From: Candidatus Gastranaerophilales bacterium
GTDB lineage: Bacteria; Cyanobacteriota; Vampirovibrionia; Gastranaerophilales; Gastranaerophilaceae
Assembly: GCA_944325075.1 (NCBI GenBank)
Contig: CALUYU010000018.1
Location: 1-36,302 of the forward strand
DNA: 36,302 bases
Direction of reading: 5' to 3'
Position 1 is the stretch's first letter, and each line of letters begins with the position of its first letter. The position numbers and the translations under genes are program-made. The notes beneath the pieces were generated by a model. The model did not search any database, was not told the origin of the DNA, and was given only the letters and a program-made list of their open reading frames with translations. This document shows, one piece after another, positions 67-29,631 of this stretch.

Positions 67-90
67 GTTGGGGTGAACCCCCAACCTACA
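67..90. repeat. Palindromic repeat family A, copy 1
   Basis: GTTGGGG (67-73) is followed by CCCCAAC (79-85) and the tail CTACA. The same arm-loop-arm-CTACA unit recurs at 268-292, 29213-29237, 29249-29271 and 36227-36251. It lies inside the open frame of the prepilin-like gene, and a candidate GTG start (73) falls within the hairpin. Confidence 0.8.
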
Positions 91-1104
91 ATGAACTGTG
101 TTGGACGCATATGGAAAAGGTCGATAAAAGATTCCCCATGTCATCCTGAACTCGCAGCTCCTCTTGTTGCCGACGAAAAGGAGGCTTACAAGGGAGGGTG
201 CTCGCAGAGTATTTCAGGATCCTACCGCCTGCAAGAATATACAGATTTCAATATCAATGAATCTAATGTTGGGGTGGAAACCCCAACCTACAATAATATT
301 TCTCTGAATACTAAAGAGCGCAGCATAATATGGAAGTGCCTCAGGCACCACTCGCCTCGCAGGGTTGCATTTACCCTTGCAGAAGTTTTTTCACCTTACT
401 ATTTATCGCCTCGTCGAATTGCATTTACTCTGGCGGAAGTCCTTATAACCCTAGGCATAATCGGAGTTGTTGCCGCTATGACAATGCCGACTCTGCTCCA
501 GAAAGTTGAATCAGAAGTTATAAAAAGTCAGTTTAAGAAAGCGTATTCTGTTTTATCCCAGGCATATATAAAAGCAGAGGCCGATTTGGGTTATAAGCCA
601 TCTTGCGCTTACGGATTAACTAATACAACTGATGATTGTACTAAATTGCGCGAAACATTAGAAAAAAATCTTTCGATTATTAAAATCTGCGAGAACAATG
701 CGCTTAAAAACGGATGTTTTCCAAAATCATCATATGAGGGTATTGATACTGTAATAAAATCTAATAATCCGGATTTATCAGAGGAAGAATTAAAGGATGT
801 AGAAGATTTTATAACTGCAAATTGTAGCGGTTATAGAAAATCAAATATAGAAAATAATTCAAGGGCTGTAGTACTGAAAGATGGAGTAATTTTGTTTTAT
901 TATGACTCTATTGCTCATCCTGCCTTTATTGCTGTAGATGTAAACGGTACTAAGGGGCCTAACAAGTGGGGTTATGACTTGTTTTCGTTAGAAGTTATAT
1001 CATCTGCCTCAAAACCCTTGTATTTGGTAGGTAACGCGGGATGTATGCCTGTTGAAAAAGGCGGAATGAATTCACAGAACTTTCTCAAAAATTTGTATAA
1101 ATGA
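73..1104 (+). CDS. Type II secretion/type IV pilin-like prepilin with repeat-derived leader (5' end possibly outside window)
   Basis: This is a class III prepilin-like protein. Processing is expected at A^F within IAFTLAEVLITLGIIGVVAAM (A codon at 421, F at 424), giving a mature protein of about 226 residues with a hydrophobic N-terminal helix and a Cys-containing globular part. It should be cleaved by prepilin peptidase and act in a pseudopilus or pilus at the cell envelope. The start is unsettled. GTG at 73 or ATG at 91 are possible, but the frame has no stop back to base 1, so the real start may lie outside the window. Residues 1-98 from the GTG are mostly translated repeats: family A hairpins, the HPEL-type family B element, and LQEYTDFN. 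The cleavage motif is present twice (352-387 and 406-441). The C-terminus ends in FLKNLYK with no visible frameshift. No good ribosome binding site is seen before 73 or 91. Function beyond the prepilin class is unknown. Confidence 0.72.
   Translation: MNPQPTMNCVGRIWKRSIKDSPCHPELAAPLVADEKEAYKGGCSQSISGSYRLQEYTDFNINESNVGVETPTYNNISLNTKERSIIWKCLRHHSPRRVAFTLAEVFSPYYLSPRRIAFTLAEVLITLGIIGVVAAMTMPTLLQKVESEVIKSQFKKAYSVLSQAYIKAEADLGYKPSCAYGLTNTTDDCTKLRETLEKNLSIIKICENNALKNGCFPKSSYEGIDTVIKSNNPDLSEEELKDVEDFITANCSGYRKSNIENNSRAVVLKDGVILFYYDSIAHPAFIAVDVNGTKGPNKWGYDLFSLEVISSASKPLYLVGNAGCMPVEKGGMNSQNFLKNLYK
139..221 (+). repeat. Interspersed repeat family B, long form (HPEL...SGS)
   Basis: The ends form the palindrome TCATCCTGAACTCG ... 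TTTCAGGATC. The middle holds about 57 extra bases with CTCGCAG near both sides and an internal CTCCTCTTGT / ACAAGGGAG pairing. The copy at 29333-29415, in the opposite orientation, matches over 83 bp with one substitution. It is translated in frame as HPELAAPLVADEKEAYKGG and onward. Confidence 0.85.
262..292. repeat. Palindromic repeat family A, copy 2
   Basis: GTTGGGGT (268-275), loop GGAA, ACCCCAAC (280-287), then CTACA. It is read in frame as VGVETPTYN within the prepilin leader. The bases just upstream, encoding LQEYTDFN, are shared with the pilin pseudogene near 29100. Confidence 0.8.
352..441 (+). repeat. Tandem duplication of the prepilin cleavage motif
   Basis: Two 36-bp units, 352-387 and 406-441, match at 28 of 36 bases. 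They encode SPRRVAFTLAEV and SPRRIAFTLAEV, separated by FSPYYL. Only the second continues into the hydrophobic helix of a prepilin, so the first looks like a left-over copy. Confidence 0.8.
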
Positions 1105-11539: not shown

Positions 11540-12682
11540 ATGCAGGTAAATAAAAATTATACTAATTATAAAGAGGAATTTGAACGGATATATAATGATA
11601 AAATTCTTGCCTCCCTGCTTTCAATAGAGAAGGAGAGACAGGAAAAGCTTGTCAGTATGATATTTAATGAGTGTCTAATACTCATTCTGTTTGCCGGGAG
11701 CTTATTTTTGTTCGTAAACATTATTCTTTATCTTCAGCCAATTATATGCGCTTTTTGTTTCCTGATTGTTCTTTTTATCTTTGTTCTTTTGTGTGTGTAT
11801 CCTTCTTGTAAAAATTATGCATTTGCAAATAAATTAAAAAGCATGTACCTTGCTAAAATATTAAACATTATAGGGAAATTTGAGTATGGCACCCGTGAAA
11901 CTCATATCCCGATAGAAACAATTAAAAAAAGCGGTCTTTTTACCGGTGGTACAGAAGTTATATATGATGACTGCTTTTCAGGAAATTATAAAGGTGTGGA
12001 TTTAAAAATTAATGAAATAAACTTATCAGCACCTCAAAATGCCAATGCAAAGGGGGCTTTACCATTTAAGATTTTCCGTGGAGTAATAATCAATATGGCA
12101 TTTAATAAAACGATAAAAAGTAATACTCTGGTATATTCTAAGGAAGATATTCATGTTAAAGGCTGGCGGCTTAGATATATGCTTTCGGCTATAATAGCAT
12201 TGTGTATAGTATGTTTTGTTTTGAAGGTTGCAGGGATTATAATGTCAAGCCCGGAATTTTATGCAGTGCTTATACTTGTATTACTGATACTTGCATATAG
12301 CTATATTACTCTTGCCTGGGCTTTCAAGGAAAAATTGAAAAATGTTAACGGATTAAATGAGCTTAAATTAGAAGATACAGAATTCAATAAACGTTATAGT
12401 GCTTTTTCATCTGATCAGGTAGAGGGAAGATATCTTATAACCCCTGCGTTTATGGAGAGATTTAAAAATATTCAGACTGCATTCGGGACAAAACAAGTAA
12501 AGTGTTCTTTTTTTGATAATAGTTTGATGCTTGCAATATCAACCGGTAAGAATGTTTTCGAGTTGGGCAATTTGTATACTCCTTTGAATACTACAAAACA
12601 TATGGATGAATTTTTTGATGAACTTTTATCAATTTTAGTTTTAGTTGACCACTTTAAATTAAATGAAAGTACAAAATTATAA
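11540..12682 (+). CDS. DUF3137-type membrane protein, paralogue 1
   Basis: The 380-residue protein has two predicted membrane hairpins, about residues 43-87 and 210-265, each pair separated by a short turn. The N-terminal helix and the central domain (about 90-205) would lie in the cytoplasm. The C-terminal block SSDQVEGRYLITPAFMERF with following ISTGKNVFELGN is the part I recognise as DUF3137. No enzymatic residues are evident and the family function is unknown. It is the most divergent of three tandem paralogues and the first in the set. No clear ribosome binding site precedes the ATG at 11540, so the start is less sure. The gap to paralogue 2 is 14 bases. Confidence 0.85.
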   Translation: MQVNKNYTNYKEEFERIYNDKILASLLSIEKERQEKLVSMIFNECLILILFAGSLFLFVNIILYLQPIICAFCFLIVLFIFVLLCVYPSCKNYAFANKLKSMYLAKILNIIGKFEYGTRETHIPIETIKKSGLFTGGTEVIYDDCFSGNYKGVDLKINEINLSAPQNANAKGALPFKIFRGVIINMAFNKTIKSNTLVYSKEDIHVKGWRLRYMLSAIIALCIVCFVLKVAGIIMSSPEFYAVLILVLLILAYSYITLAWAFKEKLKNVNGLNELKLEDTEFNKRYSAFSSDQVEGRYLITPAFMERFKNIQTAFGTKQVKCSFFDNSLMLAISTGKNVFELGNLYTPLNTTKHMDEFFDELLSILVLVDHFKLNESTKL

Positions 12683-12696
12683 GGTAATATAACAGT

Positions 12697-13830
12697 ATGG
12701 CAAAGATTGGAACGTTAAATAATACAATTTCAGAGTATAGAAGAAATTTTTATAATATTTATCATAAAAGTATTATTCCAATATTTGAACAATATGAAAT
12801 TCAGCGGAAAAATAAGGTATTGTTTGTTGTAATAACTTGTTTAATTTTATTGGCTTTTATTTTATTTATGGTTGTAGATATTTGTACAAATCCTAATCCC
12901 AATGATGGTGATGTGTTAAAATATATTCTTGGAACTGTTGCATTAATTGCACTGATTTTTCTTCCGATACATGAAAATAACAAATTTGTTTCTATGTTAA
13001 AAAACGGCTGTATGATGCAAATTCTTACTGCTTTCGGCAATATATCATGGATTGAGAATGTAAACATGATTACGGATTTTGAACTGAATAACAGTGATTT
13101 GTTTTCAACATATAACCGTCGGAGTTCAGCAGATTCTTTTAAAGGTGTCTATAAAGATGTTGATTTTAGTATTTCGGAAACAAACCTTAAGTATGAGACA
13201 GGCTCAGGAAAAAACAGAAGAATTTATCCGGTTTTTAAGGGTGTGGTTATAAAGTTTGAAGCTAACAAAGTAATTAAAAACAAAACAATTATTGCCACCC
13301 GTGGAGATAATAATATTAAAAGAAATAATCCGGGATTGACAGTAACAATTATAGGTCTTGTTTGTTATTTTGTGTCTTGTTTTTTTGACCAAGGGCTAAA
13401 TTTAATAAGCATAATGGTTATATTATTTATTGGTTTTATAGTATTTCTTGCTTGTAAGATTTTTATGAACCAAACAAATGGTATTTTAAAGCGGGAAATT
13501 CTTTCAGAGGTTAAGCTTGAGGATCCCGAATTTAGCAGAAAATATGTTGCATATTCATCTGACCAGGTAGAGGGAAGATATCTTATAACTCCTGCGTTTA
13601 TGGAAAGATTTAAGAATATAGAGACGGCCTTTGGCACTCATAAAGTAAAATGTTCCTTTTACAGAGACAGTATAATGTTTGCAATCTCAACGGATAAAAA
13701 TCTGTTTGAGATAGGAAATCTATATCACAGCCTGAAAGATCCAAAACAAATGACAATATTTTTTAATGAATTAGCATCAATACTTGTATTGATTGACTAT
13801 TTCAAACTTGATGAGCAAACCAGATTATAA
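12697..13830 (+). CDS. DUF3137-type membrane protein, paralogue 2
   Basis: The 377-residue protein has the same plan as its neighbours: a charged N-terminus with YHKSIIPIFEQYE, a membrane hairpin about 45-90, a second about 210-255, and the DUF3137 block SSDQVEGRYLITPAFMERF near residue 285. AAGGTAA upstream may serve as a weak ribosome binding site. The last 155 bases differ from the end of paralogue 3 at only four positions, while the rest of the genes has diverged much more. Tandem placement with a 14-base gap before and a 3-base gap after suggests co-translation and perhaps a hetero-oligomeric membrane complex; the complex is inference. Confidence 0.87.
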   Translation: MAKIGTLNNTISEYRRNFYNIYHKSIIPIFEQYEIQRKNKVLFVVITCLILLAFILFMVVDICTNPNPNDGDVLKYILGTVALIALIFLPIHENNKFVSMLKNGCMMQILTAFGNISWIENVNMITDFELNNSDLFSTYNRRSSADSFKGVYKDVDFSISETNLKYETGSGKNRRIYPVFKGVVIKFEANKVIKNKTIIATRGDNNIKRNNPGLTVTIIGLVCYFVSCFFDQGLNLISIMVILFIGFIVFLACKIFMNQTNGILKREILSEVKLEDPEFSRKYVAYSSDQVEGRYLITPAFMERFKNIETAFGTHKVKCSFYRDSIMFAISTDKNLFEIGNLYHSLKDPKQMTIFFNELASILVLIDYFKLDEQTRL

Positions 13831-15033
13831 TAAATGGATAATAAAATGAAAAGTGTAAATAATTTAATGTCAGACTACATGAAAAACTTTTATAATGTTT
13901 ATCATAAAAGCATTGTTCCTCTTTTTACACAATATGAGCTTTTAAGAAAACGCAGATTATCAGTTCTTATAATATTAAGTCTTATTCTAGTATCTATAAG
14001 CGTTTTACTTCTGGTAGAGGTATATTCCGGGGAGGCAATGAGACGAGCAAATGCTGACAATATCCGCAGTCTTGCTGAAGCGGTGTTGATTATTAGTGAA
14101 TTTTTGTTAGCAATTGTACTGCCGGCTCTTGTAGTTTATATGCACATTTATTTTAATAATAAATTTGTCATGGAATTGAAAGATAACTGCATGTCAAAGA
14201 TTTTAGCTGCATTTGGCAATATCAGTCCAGCTGATGATAAAAATCTGATTTCAGACGAGGAATTGGCTAAAAGCAATTTATTTTCTGAATATGGATACCG
14301 CAGCAATCTGGATTCATTTAAGGGCGTATATAAAGATGTGGAATTTGATATTTCTGAAATAATACTAAAACAAGAGAATAATACCAGAAATATCCGCCAT
14401 CCGTTAATGTTGTTTGGCGGTGTTGTAGTTAGGTTTAAGGCTAATAAAACTATCAGGAATAACACTATTATAGCTTTAAGAAGAGATAAAAGTGTTAAGA
14501 ACTCCGCCCCTGCTGCTATCCTTCTTATAATAAGTCTGTTTTCTTTAGTTTTTTTGCTGGTGGATAAGGCTGGCGGGATTCGGGAGATGCTGAATAATCC
14601 GGTCTATCTGCTTACTGGAATTTATACACTTTTTGGTGTTGTTTTGATGTTTATCGCGGTTTTGTGTAAATATAAAGAGAATAAATTATTAAAAAGTGAG
14701 GCTCTTTCCAGTGTTAAGCTTGAAGATCCTGAGTTCTCCAGAAAATATTCTGCATATTCATCTGACCAGGTAGAAGGAAGATATCTTATAACTCCTGCAT
14801 TTATGGAAAGATTCAAAAACTTGGAGATTGCATTTAGTTCCGGGAATATAAAATGTTCTTTTTACGATGATAAAATAATGTTTGCAATCTCAACGGATAA
14901 AAATCTGTTTGAGATAGGAAATCTATATCACAGCCTGAAAGATCCAAAACAAATGACGATATTTTTTAATGAATTAGCGTCAATACTTGCATTGATTGAC
15001 TATTTCAAACTTGATGAGCAAACCGGATTATAA
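13676..15033 (+). repeat. Near-identical 3' tract shared by DUF3137 paralogues 2 and 3
   Basis: 13676-13830 and 14879-15033 are aligned end to end with four mismatches in 155 bases, encoding FEIGNLYHSLKDPKQMTIFF and neighbours. Sequence outside the tract is clearly less similar, which points to gene conversion or recent partial duplication. Confidence 0.85.
13834..15033 (+). CDS. DUF3137-type membrane protein, paralogue 3
   Basis: The 399-residue protein is the longest of the three; its first membrane hairpin carries extra residues (about 48-110). The second hairpin is near 225-275, followed by SSDQVEGRYLITPAFMERF and the conserved C-terminus. The ATG at 13834 is three bases after the stop of paralogue 2. 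A second ATG at 13846 (MKSVNNLMSDYMKNFYNVYH) is equally possible, and neither has a strong ribosome binding site, which suggests translational coupling. No terminator is obvious after the stop, but a separate promoter precedes ftsH. Confidence 0.86.
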   Translation: MDNKMKSVNNLMSDYMKNFYNVYHKSIVPLFTQYELLRKRRLSVLIILSLILVSISVLLLVEVYSGEAMRRANADNIRSLAEAVLIISEFLLAIVLPALVVYMHIYFNNKFVMELKDNCMSKILAAFGNISPADDKNLISDEELAKSNLFSEYGYRSNLDSFKGVYKDVEFDISEIILKQENNTRNIRHPLMLFGGVVVRFKANKTIRNNTIIALRRDKSVKNSAPAAILLIISLFSLVFLLVDKAGGIREMLNNPVYLLTGIYTLFGVVLMFIAVLCKYKENKLLKSEALSSVKLEDPEFSRKYSAYSSDQVEGRYLITPAFMERFKNLEIAFSSGNIKCSFYDDKIMFAISTDKNLFEIGNLYHSLKDPKQMTIFFNELASILALIDYFKLDEQTGL

Positions 15034-24828: not shown

Positions 24829-25512
24829 TTATTCTGTTGCTTCGGTTGTTTGTTCTGTTGAACTGTTATTTTCACTCATCGGAATAATTAGCTTTTGTCC
24901 GATTGCCAGTTTATTTGGATCAGTCATATTATTCGCTTTCATAATCATATTAATTTTATCCGGCGAGTAGGAACCGTAAAATCTTCTGGCAATACTTTCC
25001 ATAGTATCTCCGCTTTGAACAGTATACTCTTCATTTGCAGCAACTGACGCAGATGTTTCTGTAGCTGTTGTATTTGTGTCACTTTCAGATGACGGAAGGA
25101 AATTCAATTTATCATCCTGATTAGTTTGCGTTTTTGCAGACGGAGCAGTGGCTGCCGGCAATTTGAAGTTTAGTTTGAAATTAGGATGAAAATTCCCTGA
25201 ACTCATTCGTATAAATGCTGAGACAAGTAAAGTTGCAATTATTCCGGCAACAAACCCTATGCCGAGATAAACAATAGGGGATCTTTCGCCTTTAGGCATT
25301 TTAAAATCTTTCCATAACAGGTCAAGTTCTTTTTCTTTATTAGGTCTTACGTAGACTTCCGGCGAACCGTCCTCTATCGGTTCACTGTTGATACTAATAT
25401 CATCATTGCTATTTGTTGTGCTATTTTTAAATTTTGTTAATGCTTCCAGCACGGCCATTTTCTCCTTTGATAAGTTTGATCTTCTGATAGTTGAACTTTT
25501 CATTCTTTCCAT
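24829..25512 (-). CDS. LysM-domain single-pass membrane protein
   Basis: The 227-residue protein has a cytoplasmic N-terminal tail (1-78, rich in Ser, Lys and Asn), one membrane helix (79-101, IVYLGIGFVAGIIATLLVSA), a Ser/Thr/Ala-rich linker, and a LysM module at 163-211 beginning YTVQSGDTMESIARRFYG. LysM binds N-acetylglucosamine-containing glycans, so the protein probably anchors at or senses peptidoglycan. The start is ATG at 25512 or the in-frame ATG at 25503; GGGGT sits close upstream and favours neither strongly. No enzymatic domain is attached. It converges with the methyltransferase. Confidence 0.88.
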   Translation of the reverse strand: MERMKSSTIRRSNLSKEKMAVLEALTKFKNSTTNSNDDISINSEPIEDGSPEVYVRPNKEKELDLLWKDFKMPKGERSPIVYLGIGFVAGIIATLLVSAFIRMSSGNFHPNFKLNFKLPAATAPSAKTQTNQDDKLNFLPSSESDTNTTATETSASVAANEEYTVQSGDTMESIARRFYGSYSPDKINMIMKANNMTDPNKLAIGQKLIIPMSENNSSTEQTTEATE

Positions 25513-25588
25513 ACCCCAATCCAGTTATTCTTCTATTATGTGTTTGTATGTTAGCATGACTAACCACGTATTACAAGCTTTTGTAAAT

Positions 25589-26073
25589 TTAAGTGAAGAA
25601 TAACCATAACGTCTGCTAACATTATTAAGTTGTTATCCGAATGTTATAGTTTTTGTTCACTTTTTCTTTTTGAAAGCAGGCAAAAAGAAAAAGTGAACCG
25701 AAAAAGAAAAACTTGCCATGCACCTTCACCGCCTTAGGCGGTGATTAGACCAAATGATAAACTGAAATGCTAACGCATTTCCACTTTATGGCTCACTATC
25801 ACGCTCATTATTATTCGCGCACGTTCGCCTGCCGAGCGTGTGCAGTAGCACAATAGCGAGGCTAAAAGTTTTTGTGCATTAGCACAAAAGTTTTCATTAG
25901 TATTTATTCGGCGACCATAGGGAGACGATGTTTAATTGCGTGTTTCCTTTTCTTTGGTTCGTTTCTTTTCCTTTGTTGCGATGCAAAGGAAAAGAAACGA
26001 ACACAAAACAACCAAAACTTCTGCCTATCAATTTTAATAATAGCGGCAGACGTTATGGTTATTCTTCACTTAA
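25589..26073. mobile_element. 485-bp non-coding element with terminal inverted repeats and a chain of hairpins (MITE-like)
   Basis: The ends, 25589-25616 and 26046-26073, are perfect 28-bp inverted repeats beginning TTAAGTGAAGAATAACC. After a 4-bp mismatch they pair for 8 more bases (25621-25628 with 26034-26041). The interior holds successive hairpins: 25655-25698 (18-bp perfect stem, GTTCACTTTTTCTTTTTG arm), 25727-25743 (CACCGCC/GGCGGTG), 25764-25781 (GAAATGC/GCATTTC), 25817-25843 (11 bp with two wobbles), 25870-25889 (TTTTGTGC/GCACAAAA) and 25957-26002 (19-bp perfect stem). The element accounts for most of the 663-base gap between the LysM gene and fusA. No plausible gene is inside; open frames there are short and hairpin-derived. 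TTAA or TA at each end could be target duplication. A mobile, non-autonomous element is inference; a structured RNA is the alternative. Confidence 0.75.
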
Positions 26074-26086
26074 CTTCATAACATTC

Positions 26087-26114
26087 TTGAAAAATTCTAT
26101 GTTCATGAGATAAT
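26087..26114 (+). promoter_or_regulatory. Likely fusA promoter
   Basis: TTGAAA (26087-26092), a 16-bp spacer, then GATAAT (26109-26114). It begins only 14 bases beyond the right end of the TIR element, so the element sits directly upstream of it. Confidence 0.5.
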
Positions 26115-26175: not shown

Positions 26176-28266
26176 ATGGCTAGAAAAACTCCATTAGAAA
26201 AAATCAGAAACATTGGTATTGCCGCTCACATTGACGCCGGTAAAACCACTACTACTGAACGTATTTTGTTTTACACAGGTAAAACGCATAAAATCGGAGA
26301 AGTTCATGACGGTGCTGCTGTAACAGACTTCATGGAACAGGAAAGAGAAAGAGGTATCACAATCCAGTCAGCTGCTGTAACCGCAACCTGGAAAGGACAC
26401 CAAATTAATATTATTGATACCCCGGGACACGTTGACTTTACAATTGAAGTAGAACGTTCTTTGCGTGTATTAGACGGCGTTGTTGCTGTATTCTGTGCAG
26501 TAGGTGGTGTTCAATCACAGTCTGAAACAGTTTGGAGACAAGCTAACAGATATGAAGTTCCTCGTATGGTATTTGTTAACAAAATGGATCGTACAGGAGC
26601 TAACTTCTATCGTGTAGTTGACCAAATCAGAAACAGATTAGGCGCAAATGCACATCCTATCAGACTTCCAATCGGGGCAGAAGATAAATTTACCGGTTTG
26701 ATAGATCTTTTCACTATGAAAGCTGAAATCTATACAAATGACCTTGGTACTGATATTAAAGAAGAAGAAATTCCTGCTGATATGCTTGAAGAAGCTAAAA
26801 AATACAGAGAAGCTCTTGTTGAAGCAATCGCAGAAACAGACGATGATTTAATGATGAAATATCTTGAAGGTGAAGAAATTACTGTAGATGAGTTGAAGAA
26901 AGGCTTGAGAAAAGCTGTTTGCGATAACAAAATCGTTCCGGTAACTTGTGGTACAGCCTTCAAAAATAAAGGTGTTCAGCTGCTCTTAGACTCAATCGTA
27001 GAACTTATGCCATCACCGGTTGATGTAAAGGCTATAGAAGGTGAACTTGAAGACGGAACTAAGGTTGAAAGACATTCATCTGATGATGAGCCATTCTCTG
27101 CACTTGCATTCAAAGTTATGACAGACCCTTATGTTGGTCGTTTAACTTTCTTGAGAATATATTCCGGGAAATTAACTTCAGGCTCATATGTTCTTAACGC
27201 TACTAACGGTAAAAAAGAACGTATTTCAAGATTGGTTCAAATGTATGCTGACCAGAGAATCGAAGAAGATGAAGTTTACGCAGGCGATATCTGTGCTGCT
27301 GTTGGTTTGAAAGATACTACAACGGGTGATACATTATGCGACGAAAAAGCCCCTATTATTTTGGAAAGAATGTCTTTCCCTGAACCGGTTATTTCAGTTG
27401 CTATTGAGCCTAAAACAAAAGCAGACCAGGATAAAATGGGTATTGCTCTTCAAAAACTTGCAGAGGAAGATCCTTCATTCCGTGTTAAATCAGATTCTGA
27501 AACCGGGCAAACAATTATTTCAGGTATGGGTGAACTTCACCTTGATATTATTGTAGACCGTTTGTTAAGAGAATTTAAGGTTGACGCTAACGTTGGTAAA
27601 CCTCAGGTTGCATACCGTGAAACTATCCGCGGAAATGCTGATCAGGATTCTAAATTTATTCGTCAGTCAGGCGGTAAAGGTCAATACGGTCACGTTAAAA
27701 TCAGAATTTCTCCTGCTGAAGAAAATGCCGGTTTTGTATTTGAAAACAAAATTGTTGGTGGTGCTATTCCGAAAGAATACATTGAACCTGCAAGAAAAGG
27801 TATGGAAGAAGCTCTTGAAGGTGGTATTTTGGCCGGATTCCCTATGATAGACGTAAAAGTAGAACTTTATGACGGTTCTTACCACGAAGTTGACTCTTCA
27901 GAAATGGCATTCAAAATCGCCGGATCTATGGCTATTAAAGAAGGCTGCCGTAAAGCAAAACCTTGTATTCTTGAGCCTATGATGAAGGTTGAAATTGAAG
28001 TTCCGGAAGAAAATACCGGTGATATTATCGGTGATATTTCTTCAAGAAGAGGACGTGTTGAAGGTATGGAAATTATCGAAGGCACAGGAATTCAGAAAAT
28101 CAACGCTATTGTTCCTCTGGCTGAAATGTTTGGTTATGCAACCGACATAAGATCAAAAACCCAGGGAAGAGGTACTTTCTCTATGGAATTCAAATGCTAT
28201 GAGCAAGTGCCGGCTAATATTGAAAAAGAAATTATTGAAAAATCGGGTGTTACATCTAAAGAATAA
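26176..28266 (+). CDS. fusA: Translation elongation factor G
   Basis: The 696-residue GTPase drives ribosomal translocation. Seen: the P-loop AHIDAGKTT (17-25, K23), the switch motif [15 protein letters not shown] from D81, NKMD at 135-138, then domains II-V, ending with the domain IV/V signatures GGKGQYGHV and [13 protein letters not shown]. Length and motifs are canonical. AAGGA precedes the ATG. The usual str-operon neighbours (rpsL, rpsG, tuf) are absent here, so this copy stands alone, with its own promoter and a terminator after it. Confidence 0.97.
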
Positions 28267-28325: not shown

Positions 28326-29137
28326 CTGGAAAGCTATCTATAGCCGACTTGCGTGATTTATAGCTTATACGGGTAATCATCTTTAAACTCCCATCCGTCT
28401 ATTTCAAGCAGACGAGTGCAGCAGCTTAAACTTGTTCCTTTACAGCTGTTAAGAAGTTGATTTCAGTCATTCCTTGCCTGAATGTTAAGGCATCCTGCGC
28501 CAAAATATTGATTTTTGTTTTCAAAATATATGTTCTTGTGGTCGCCGGCACATAAATAAAATCGGAATATATCTCTCCCGTCTGTATTGGGGTTACTCCG
28601 ACCGTTTATATCATAATGAAAATCAAGACAATCTCCGTTATGAACCATGACAATTGCTTCATCACTAAAATAAATAGTTGTCAGATCATCAAAGTCAGAA
28701 TCCTTTTCAACAACTTTAGTATATTTAATGTATGGCAAAATATAGGTATTTAAGAATGCCATAGTATCTTTACCGCCTGCATCTCTATCATACTGCTTTT
28801 GCCATTGTCATCTAAGATTGGATTACCATTATCATCTTTTAAAATATTATTTGGAGTTTTCGTCCAGTATTTGGGTTCTCCGTAATCCTTTTGAGCCATA
28901 AGAATTGCCTGGCTCATTGTACTGTTAAACTTTTTAAGCCTTGATGAGTATTCTATTTTTCTTTGGTTTGCCAATAATGCCGGCAAAGTCATAGCAGCAA
29001 CAACCCCGATTATGCCCAGGGTTATAAGAACTTCTGCTAACGTAAATGCGGCCCTGCGTGGCATTTTGTTGGTTGGGCATACTTGGCAAACATTAGATTT
29101 ATTGACATTGAAATCTGTATATTCTTGCAGGTGGCAA

Positions 29138-29163
29138 GATCCTGAAACGAGTTCAGGATGACA
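29138..29163 (-). repeat. Interspersed repeat family B, short form
   Basis: The palindrome GATCCTGAA ACGA GTTCAGGAT then GACA is the uninterrupted version of the long elements at 139-221 and 29333-29415. On the minus strand it reads as HPELVSGS within the pilin leader. Confidence 0.85.
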
Positions 29164-29212
29164 TGGGGAACTATTTATCGACTTTTTCCCCATGAGGTCA
29201 TTACAGTTTTTA

Positions 29213-29237
29213 TGTAGGTTGGGGTTTCTACCCCAAC
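29213..29237. repeat. Palindromic repeat family A, copy 3
   Basis: TGTAG precedes GTTGGGGT (29218-29225), loop TTCT, ACCCCAAC (29230-29237). It is opposite in orientation to the copies at 67 and 268. Confidence 0.82.
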
Positions 29238-29248
29238 AATATTTTAAT

Positions 29249-29271
29249 GTTGGGCTGAAAGCCCAACCTAC
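29249..29271. repeat. Palindromic repeat family A, copy 4 (variant arms)
   Basis: GTTGGGC (29249-29255), loop TGAAA (29256-29260), GCCCAAC (29261-29267), then CTAC. The G-to-C change in one arm is matched in the other, so pairing is kept. A half copy (GCCCAACCTACA) lies near 29492-29503. Confidence 0.78.
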
Positions 29272-29332
29272 TTTATCTAATACTTCTTTCCCTGATACAG
29301 TGCAGATTGTCACACCTTTTTGCCGGTGGCTA

Positions 29333-29415
29333 GATCCTGAAATACTCTGCGAGCACCCTCCCTTGTAAGCCTCCTTTACGTCGGCAACAAGAGGAGCTGC
29401 GAGTTCAGGATGACA
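29333..29415 (-). repeat. Interspersed repeat family B, long form, second copy
   Basis: This is the inverse-orientation copy of 139-221: 83 bp with one substitution. It encodes HPELAAPLVADVKEAYKGG in the leader of the pilin pseudogene, the same frame as in the first gene. Confidence 0.85.
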
Positions 29416-29631
29416 TTGTAAATTTTTTATTGATCTTTTTCCTATGAGTCCCACACGGCGGAGCGTTATAGGAAGGTTCCTCAAGGACAAAGCCCAACCT
29501 ACATTGTTTTCTTCCTTACCCGCTTTTTTGAACAATTTATTCATAAAATACCTCCTTTTATTATCGAAAAACTTTGCAGCACAAAACGACGAAAAAAGAT
29601 TTCGCCTATAAAAATTTTGCAAACCCAAAAA

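Follow-up and report, generated by a model that had tools for sequence, protein, structure and literature searches.

Background

Potential intrastrand triplex motifs number in the hundred thousands in bacterial genomes, with no function assigned to them in the study cited here, and purine-motif intrastrand triplexes have been described for bacteria (PMC4666352). The triplex formed by the E. coli motif is stable in vitro and was not seen by in vivo footprinting; the loci carrying this motif are rearranged more than controls, linking them to instability (PMC4666352). The element considered here is a DNA palindrome, containing no gene, that lies upstream of the essential gene fusA in Candidatus Gastranaerophilales bacterium. 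In common with the E. coli PIT elements, BoxC and TMECO (PMC4666352), it carries a pyrimidine arm, a purine arm and a mirror purine third strand on one DNA strand, the arrangement that defines a potential intrastrand triplex, and it belongs to a multicopy repeat; inverted (palindromic) pairs are known among the E. coli elements too, which are linked to local genome instability. It differs from them in having A-dominated, A/G-rich stems of 18-19 bp where theirs is a 9-nt G/C-rich stem, such that the TMECO consensus, which describes an E. coli subtype only (C/G-rich 9-nt stem), is not matched. Furthermore, its motifs form the two ends of a palindrome of ~0.5 kb bounded by terminal inverted repeats (TIR), and in an exact-tail search the motif is confined to the family of the window, the latter being the whole stretch of 36,302 nucleotides that was analysed.

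As in REPINs and BIMEs (PMC3116915, PMC2817692), inverted doublets of palindromic units would be the replicative entity, singlets are dispersed, the copies are extragenic and hairpins are predicted in single-stranded DNA; as inverted doublets, REPINs (PMC3116915) are the nearest analogue. The units described here are, however, much longer, carry the triplex motif and TIRs, and show no association with a RAYT gene among the 16 genomes tested. The element also resembles MITEs in being non-autonomous, free of genes, bounded by TIRs, intergenic and multicopy in related genomes. Unlike MITEs, neither a parent transposon nor a consistent target duplication was found, and the TIR sequences vary between genomes while the inner architecture stays. 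Judged from its sequence, the element is a palindrome of MITE/REPIN-like type, with an intrastrand-triplex motif at either end. No description of the repeat family was found in the literature on Gastranaerophilales repeats.

Structure of the element

The window is carried by a draft genome of 2.26 Mb in 107 contigs (G000), and the features of the locus are listed in Table 1. The original prediction of perfect 28-bp TIRs, perfect 18- and 19-bp stems with 8-nt loops, and a gene-free interior was borne out, with no ORF of at least 80 aa inside the element. The chain of hairpins that it described is also present, consisting of the two long stems and five smaller ones of 7-8 bp each, one of which lies within the left TIR. 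The TIRs are nested in a longer inverted repeat (48 nt, 85%, 25581-25628 / 26034-26081). Relative to 60 dinucleotide shuffles for each strand and type, folding energy gave z scores of -13.8 (RNA, + strand), -13.0 (RNA, - strand), -13.5 (DNA, + strand) and -14.7 (DNA, - strand).

Table 1. Coordinates of the element, its parts and the flanking genes within the window
Feature	Position	Strand	Remarks
Gene with LysM domain	24829..25512	-	divergent; marks the orthologous site
Whole element	25581..26081	.	two head-to-head half-units forming an imperfect palindrome over the full length; inverted repeats reach slightly past 25589-26073
Left TIR	25589..25616	+	28 bp, perfect, TTAAGTGAAGAATAACCATAACGTCTGC
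Left half-unit	25650..25829	+	dispersed repeat of the host genome
H1, long polypurine hairpin	25655-25672/25681-25698		perfect, 18 bp; loop AAAGCAGG, 8 nt
Potential intrastrand triplex 1	25655..25712	+	pyrimidine arm 25655-25672, loop 25673-25680, purine arm 25681-25698
Triplex 1, mirror third strand	25700-25711	+	13/13 mirrored, counting the next base
Small hairpin	25726..25744	.	TCACCGCC-TTA-GGCGGTGA
Small hairpin	25764..25781	.	GAAATGC-TAAC-GCATTTC
Central imperfect hairpin	25820..25840	.	CACGTTCG-CCTGC-CGAGCGTG; at the dyad between half-units
Right half-unit	25830..26016	-	diverged inverted homologue of the left half-unit
Small hairpin	25870..25889	.	TTTTGTGC-ATTA-GCACAAAA
Triplex 2, mirror third strand	25955-25943	-	13/13 mirrored
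Potential intrastrand triplex 2	25943..26002	-	pyrimidine arm 26002-25984, loop 25983-25976, purine arm 25975-25957
H5, long polypurine hairpin	25957-25975/25984-26002		perfect, 19 bp; loop TTGCGATG, 8 nt
Right TIR	26046..26073	-	28 bp, perfect; reverse complement of TTAAGTGAAGAATAACCATAACGTCTGC
fusA promoter	26087..26114	+	-35 TTGAAA 26087-26092, -10 GATAAT 26109; outside the element
fusA (elongation factor G)	26176..28266	+	

Three properties escaped the earlier reading: the full-length palindrome, the mirror third strands and the likeness of the outer part of the left TIR to sequence in congeners without the insert. From TIR to centre, the two halves of the element align with one another as inverted repeats with a score of 160, compared to a mean of 45 and a maximum of 79 in 200 shuffles. 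Because the right half, once reverse-complemented, aligns with the left one, the element consists of two head-to-head half-units, and it thereby shares with REPINs and BIMEs an organisation as an inverted doublet of palindromic units. Each half-unit runs from a long polypurine hairpin with its mirror third strand, through small hairpins, up to the central dyad. Such a head-to-head pair is found in every full copy tested, and similar half-against-half scores were obtained for one copy from G006, a genome of the same genus, and one from G021, of another genus.

Distribution among related genomes

Eight further genomes of the genus have the LysM gene and fusA side by side in divergent orientation, without the insert; the distance between the two genes is 183-234 bp in these congeners, as opposed to 672 bp in the host, and their flanks, intact fusA promoter and leader align with those of the host. 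In the sister species G011, both outer arms are present in diverged form with a prepilin-like gene between them, the ORF of which encodes an N-terminal methylation motif and contains a poly-G run close to its start; this locus rests on an inferred join of two contigs, and the genomes compared are drafts. As G011 shares the outer arms but has other contents, the site gained an insert before the split of G000 and G011, the contents of which differed afterwards. The outer part of the left TIR (~TTTAAGTGAAGAATAA) resembles sequence in the congeners without the insert, and hence the perfect TIR may in part derive from native flank copied to the opposite side.

The left half-unit (25650-25829) is present in the host genome as about ten longer copies, 80-90% identical, along with shorter pieces, and several of these copies adjoin prepilin-like genes; many copies are also found in G011. 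A DNA search of the host genome gave no further copy of the right half-unit, and both the full element and its TIR occur once there. By contrast, full-length copies are numerous in G006 and G021; their parts follow the same order, and they are bounded by TIRs of their own (ACATAANNCATGTTAT and ACATAATATATGTTAT), measuring 394-705 bp in G006 and 394-467 bp in G021. All 20 of the full-length copies examined are intergenic, lying between divergent, tandem or convergent gene pairs, and none disrupts an ORF. A second locus, adjacent to a reading frame labelled MutS2-like from its peptide by eye, is filled in G021, G424 and G148 and free of the element in G420, G142 and G372. In G148 (L239:2301-3271) a nested version of 970 bp was observed, with a hairpin-chain element inside another long inverted repeat, both lying between the same outer TIRs.

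An exact 19-nt tail motif is found, often several times, in 18 of 386 Cyanobacteriota genomes, all of them from the family of the window, and reversed-pattern controls gave zero matches; diverged related matches occur elsewhere in the order. Collections of plasmids, phages and viral contigs yielded no match, the plasmid and phage searches using a low-complexity filter.

The suggestion in the original prediction that this is a non-autonomous mobile element is supported by the empty sites in eight congeners, the multicopy relatives with TIRs and the second locus with filled and empty sites. Full-length copies are found in G006 and G021, but within the host the multicopy part is limited to the left half-unit. 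The properties shared with MITEs are those of a non-coding, TIR-bounded, intergenic sequence with insertion polymorphism between species, repeated within one genome at full length in G006 and G021 and as the half-unit only in the host. Given the empty sites and the full-length TIR-bounded copies in G006 and G021, the element can be placed in a family of non-autonomous palindromic repeats, the mobility of which on an evolutionary timescale is well supported.

The prepilin-like genes have features of their own. Several (L058:2664-3746 on the - strand, L029:1-130, L003, L004 and L006) have a 5' module in common, in which ATGGAAAAGTCAAGTATAGTACGGCATAC precedes ~12 consecutive G residues; contigs often end there, and slippage at these residues could give phase variation. 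Some (window 73-1104 and 28750-29628; L058:2664-3668) contain palindromic repeats read in frame upstream of the methylation motif, encoding HPELVSGS-type peptides and perhaps comparable to the Rickettsia palindromic elements. The window also holds three tandem paralogous genes (11540-15033), the first of which matches DUF3137, and two rpoC pieces, as would suit a relative of the cyanobacteria.

Mirror third strands

After each long stem, on the inner, centre-facing side only, lies a perfect mirror copy of the purine arm. The sequence from arm to tail reads AAAAAGAAAAAG-TGAACC-GAAAAAGAAAAA at H1 and, on the - strand, AAAGGAAAAGAAA-CGAACC-AAAGAAAAGGAAA at H5. Matches of 13/13 to the arms were reached by 4 and 17 of 20,000 composition-preserving shuffles of the two tails. 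Across 77 distinct polypurine hairpins from the fetched loci, one flank was mirrored at 10/11 or better in 66% of cases and the other flank in 1%; for other long hairpins, the better side reached this level in 9%. When 13 arm patterns, which are related by descent, were compared with their tails, an arm matched its own tail at 11.9 of 13 positions, and re-dealt tails gave a mean of 8.9, with none of 20,000 deals reaching the observed value, even though one pattern was scored with its outer flank, which lowers that value. In own tails, 28 of 30 G positions of the arm have a mirrored G, as against 31% with the tails of other patterns.

The third strand is A-rich, but it played no part in the selection of the hairpins. 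In the stems, sequence changes from H1 to H5, and from one copy to another (e.g. GTTCAC/GTGAAC and GTATGC/GCATAC), preserve pairing, but as the hairpins were selected for pairing, this evidence taken alone is partly circular. In one half-unit (L008:219-387), the purine arm and third strand are shortened alike (CAAAAAAAGTGAAC / CGAAAAAAAC) and the pyrimidine arm is not, such that the mirror is kept and the stem is not.

An origin of the third strand as a direct repeat was rejected, as the copies are mirrored, not direct, where the pattern is asymmetric, e.g. AAAGGAAAAGAAA with AAAGAAAAGGAAA; the inner purine core of H1, AAAAAGAAAAA, is symmetric, so direct and mirror copies coincide for that core. 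Inverted duplication makes no mirror repeats, and hence selection for a triplex appears the simplest reading. The triplex layout is well supported at the level of sequence, and suggests that the two main hairpins fold as DNA triple helices. Because purine-motif triplexes cannot form in RNA (PMC4666352), the structured form is more likely to be single-stranded DNA than RNA.

Possible modes of spread

The element probably belongs to a family of gene-free, non-autonomous Gastranaerophilales palindromes that spreads via a single-strand stage, for which triplexes at the ends are proposed. One strand would become single either during lagging-strand replication or in a cruciform extruded by supercoiling, whereupon each hairpin and its mirror tail could fold as a purine-motif intrastrand triplex, while the TIRs would pair the two ends of the element. 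Such triplexes might either block copying or serve as the target of an enzyme provided in trans; a mobilising gene was not found. Stalling of the fork and template switching at the palindrome would explain how inner contents change while the ends remain constant, as well as the native flank in the TIR. The specific proposal that recognition of the single-stranded form depends on intrastrand DNA triplexes, one at either end, is put forward tentatively.

An ordinary MITE, i.e. a duplex element with its TIRs cut in trans by a DDE-type transposase and with inner hairpins that are by-products of a palindromic origin, would account for the empty sites and for the copies of defined length, bounded by TIRs, at unrelated intergenic sites in G021 and G006. 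This is nevertheless doubtful: facing pairs of exact TIRs in these two draft genomes lie no more than ~745 bp apart, with no autonomous copy among them; inspection of the copy ends in G021 and G006 found no consistent target-site duplication; and the conserved mirror third strands are left unexplained.

Growth could alternatively be passive, with template switching at small palindromes extending, copying and swapping inverted arms without a dedicated enzyme. The right arm does look like an inverted copy of the left, the outer TIR of which resembles empty-site sequence, the TIRs of one G006 copy run on into the flank, and centres and contents vary between orthologous sites, as with the 970-bp version in G148 and the prepilin-like gene in G011. 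However, this process by itself does not explain near-identical full-length copies at unrelated loci, and as a full account it is unlikely.

A role as a transcribed structured RNA, or in regulating or insulating fusA or the LysM gene in cis, is improbable. The predicted fold is very stable, some G021 copies sit close upstream of genes and, as the original prediction pointed out, the right end of the element is near the fusA -35 box TTGAAA, although the distance is 13 bases and not 14. Against an RNA, both strands are equally stable, a search of the element against Rfam at gathering thresholds gave no match, copies occur in all gene contexts and the mirror third strands are of a DNA type that plays no part in RNA pairing; the earlier suggestion of a transcript is therefore disfavoured. 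The proposed insulation or modulation of fusA also lacks support, as the promoter aligns across all ten genomes compared, promoter and leader are conserved whether or not the insert is present, and the eight congeners without the element, which are most of those compared, have the same promoter. A promoter-linked function was likewise rejected, copies being present in all gene orientations, including between convergent genes. Hence the element at fusA is most likely a tolerated passenger.

Movement of a REPIN or BIME by a RAYT (Y1 transposase) is very improbable, despite the REPIN-like combination of inverted doublets of hairpin units with singlets (PMC3116915), because PF01797 is lacking in G021, a 99% complete genome with full-length copies, and found in G005, where the element has no match, and because the units are of ~240 nt and not 20-40 bp.

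Conclusions

A purine arm and a third strand that change together across many patterns provide comparative evidence of the kind that separates a selected DNA structure from chance, with a natural control in the outer side of the same hairpin, which has no mirror strand. If spread through single-stranded DNA and triplexes is true, this co-variation of three strands would be evolutionary evidence for a selected intrastrand DNA triplex in bacteria. The family is also a tractable one in which to study the spread of palindromes that contain no gene, and have no obvious transposase, within a gut lineage that has received little attention.
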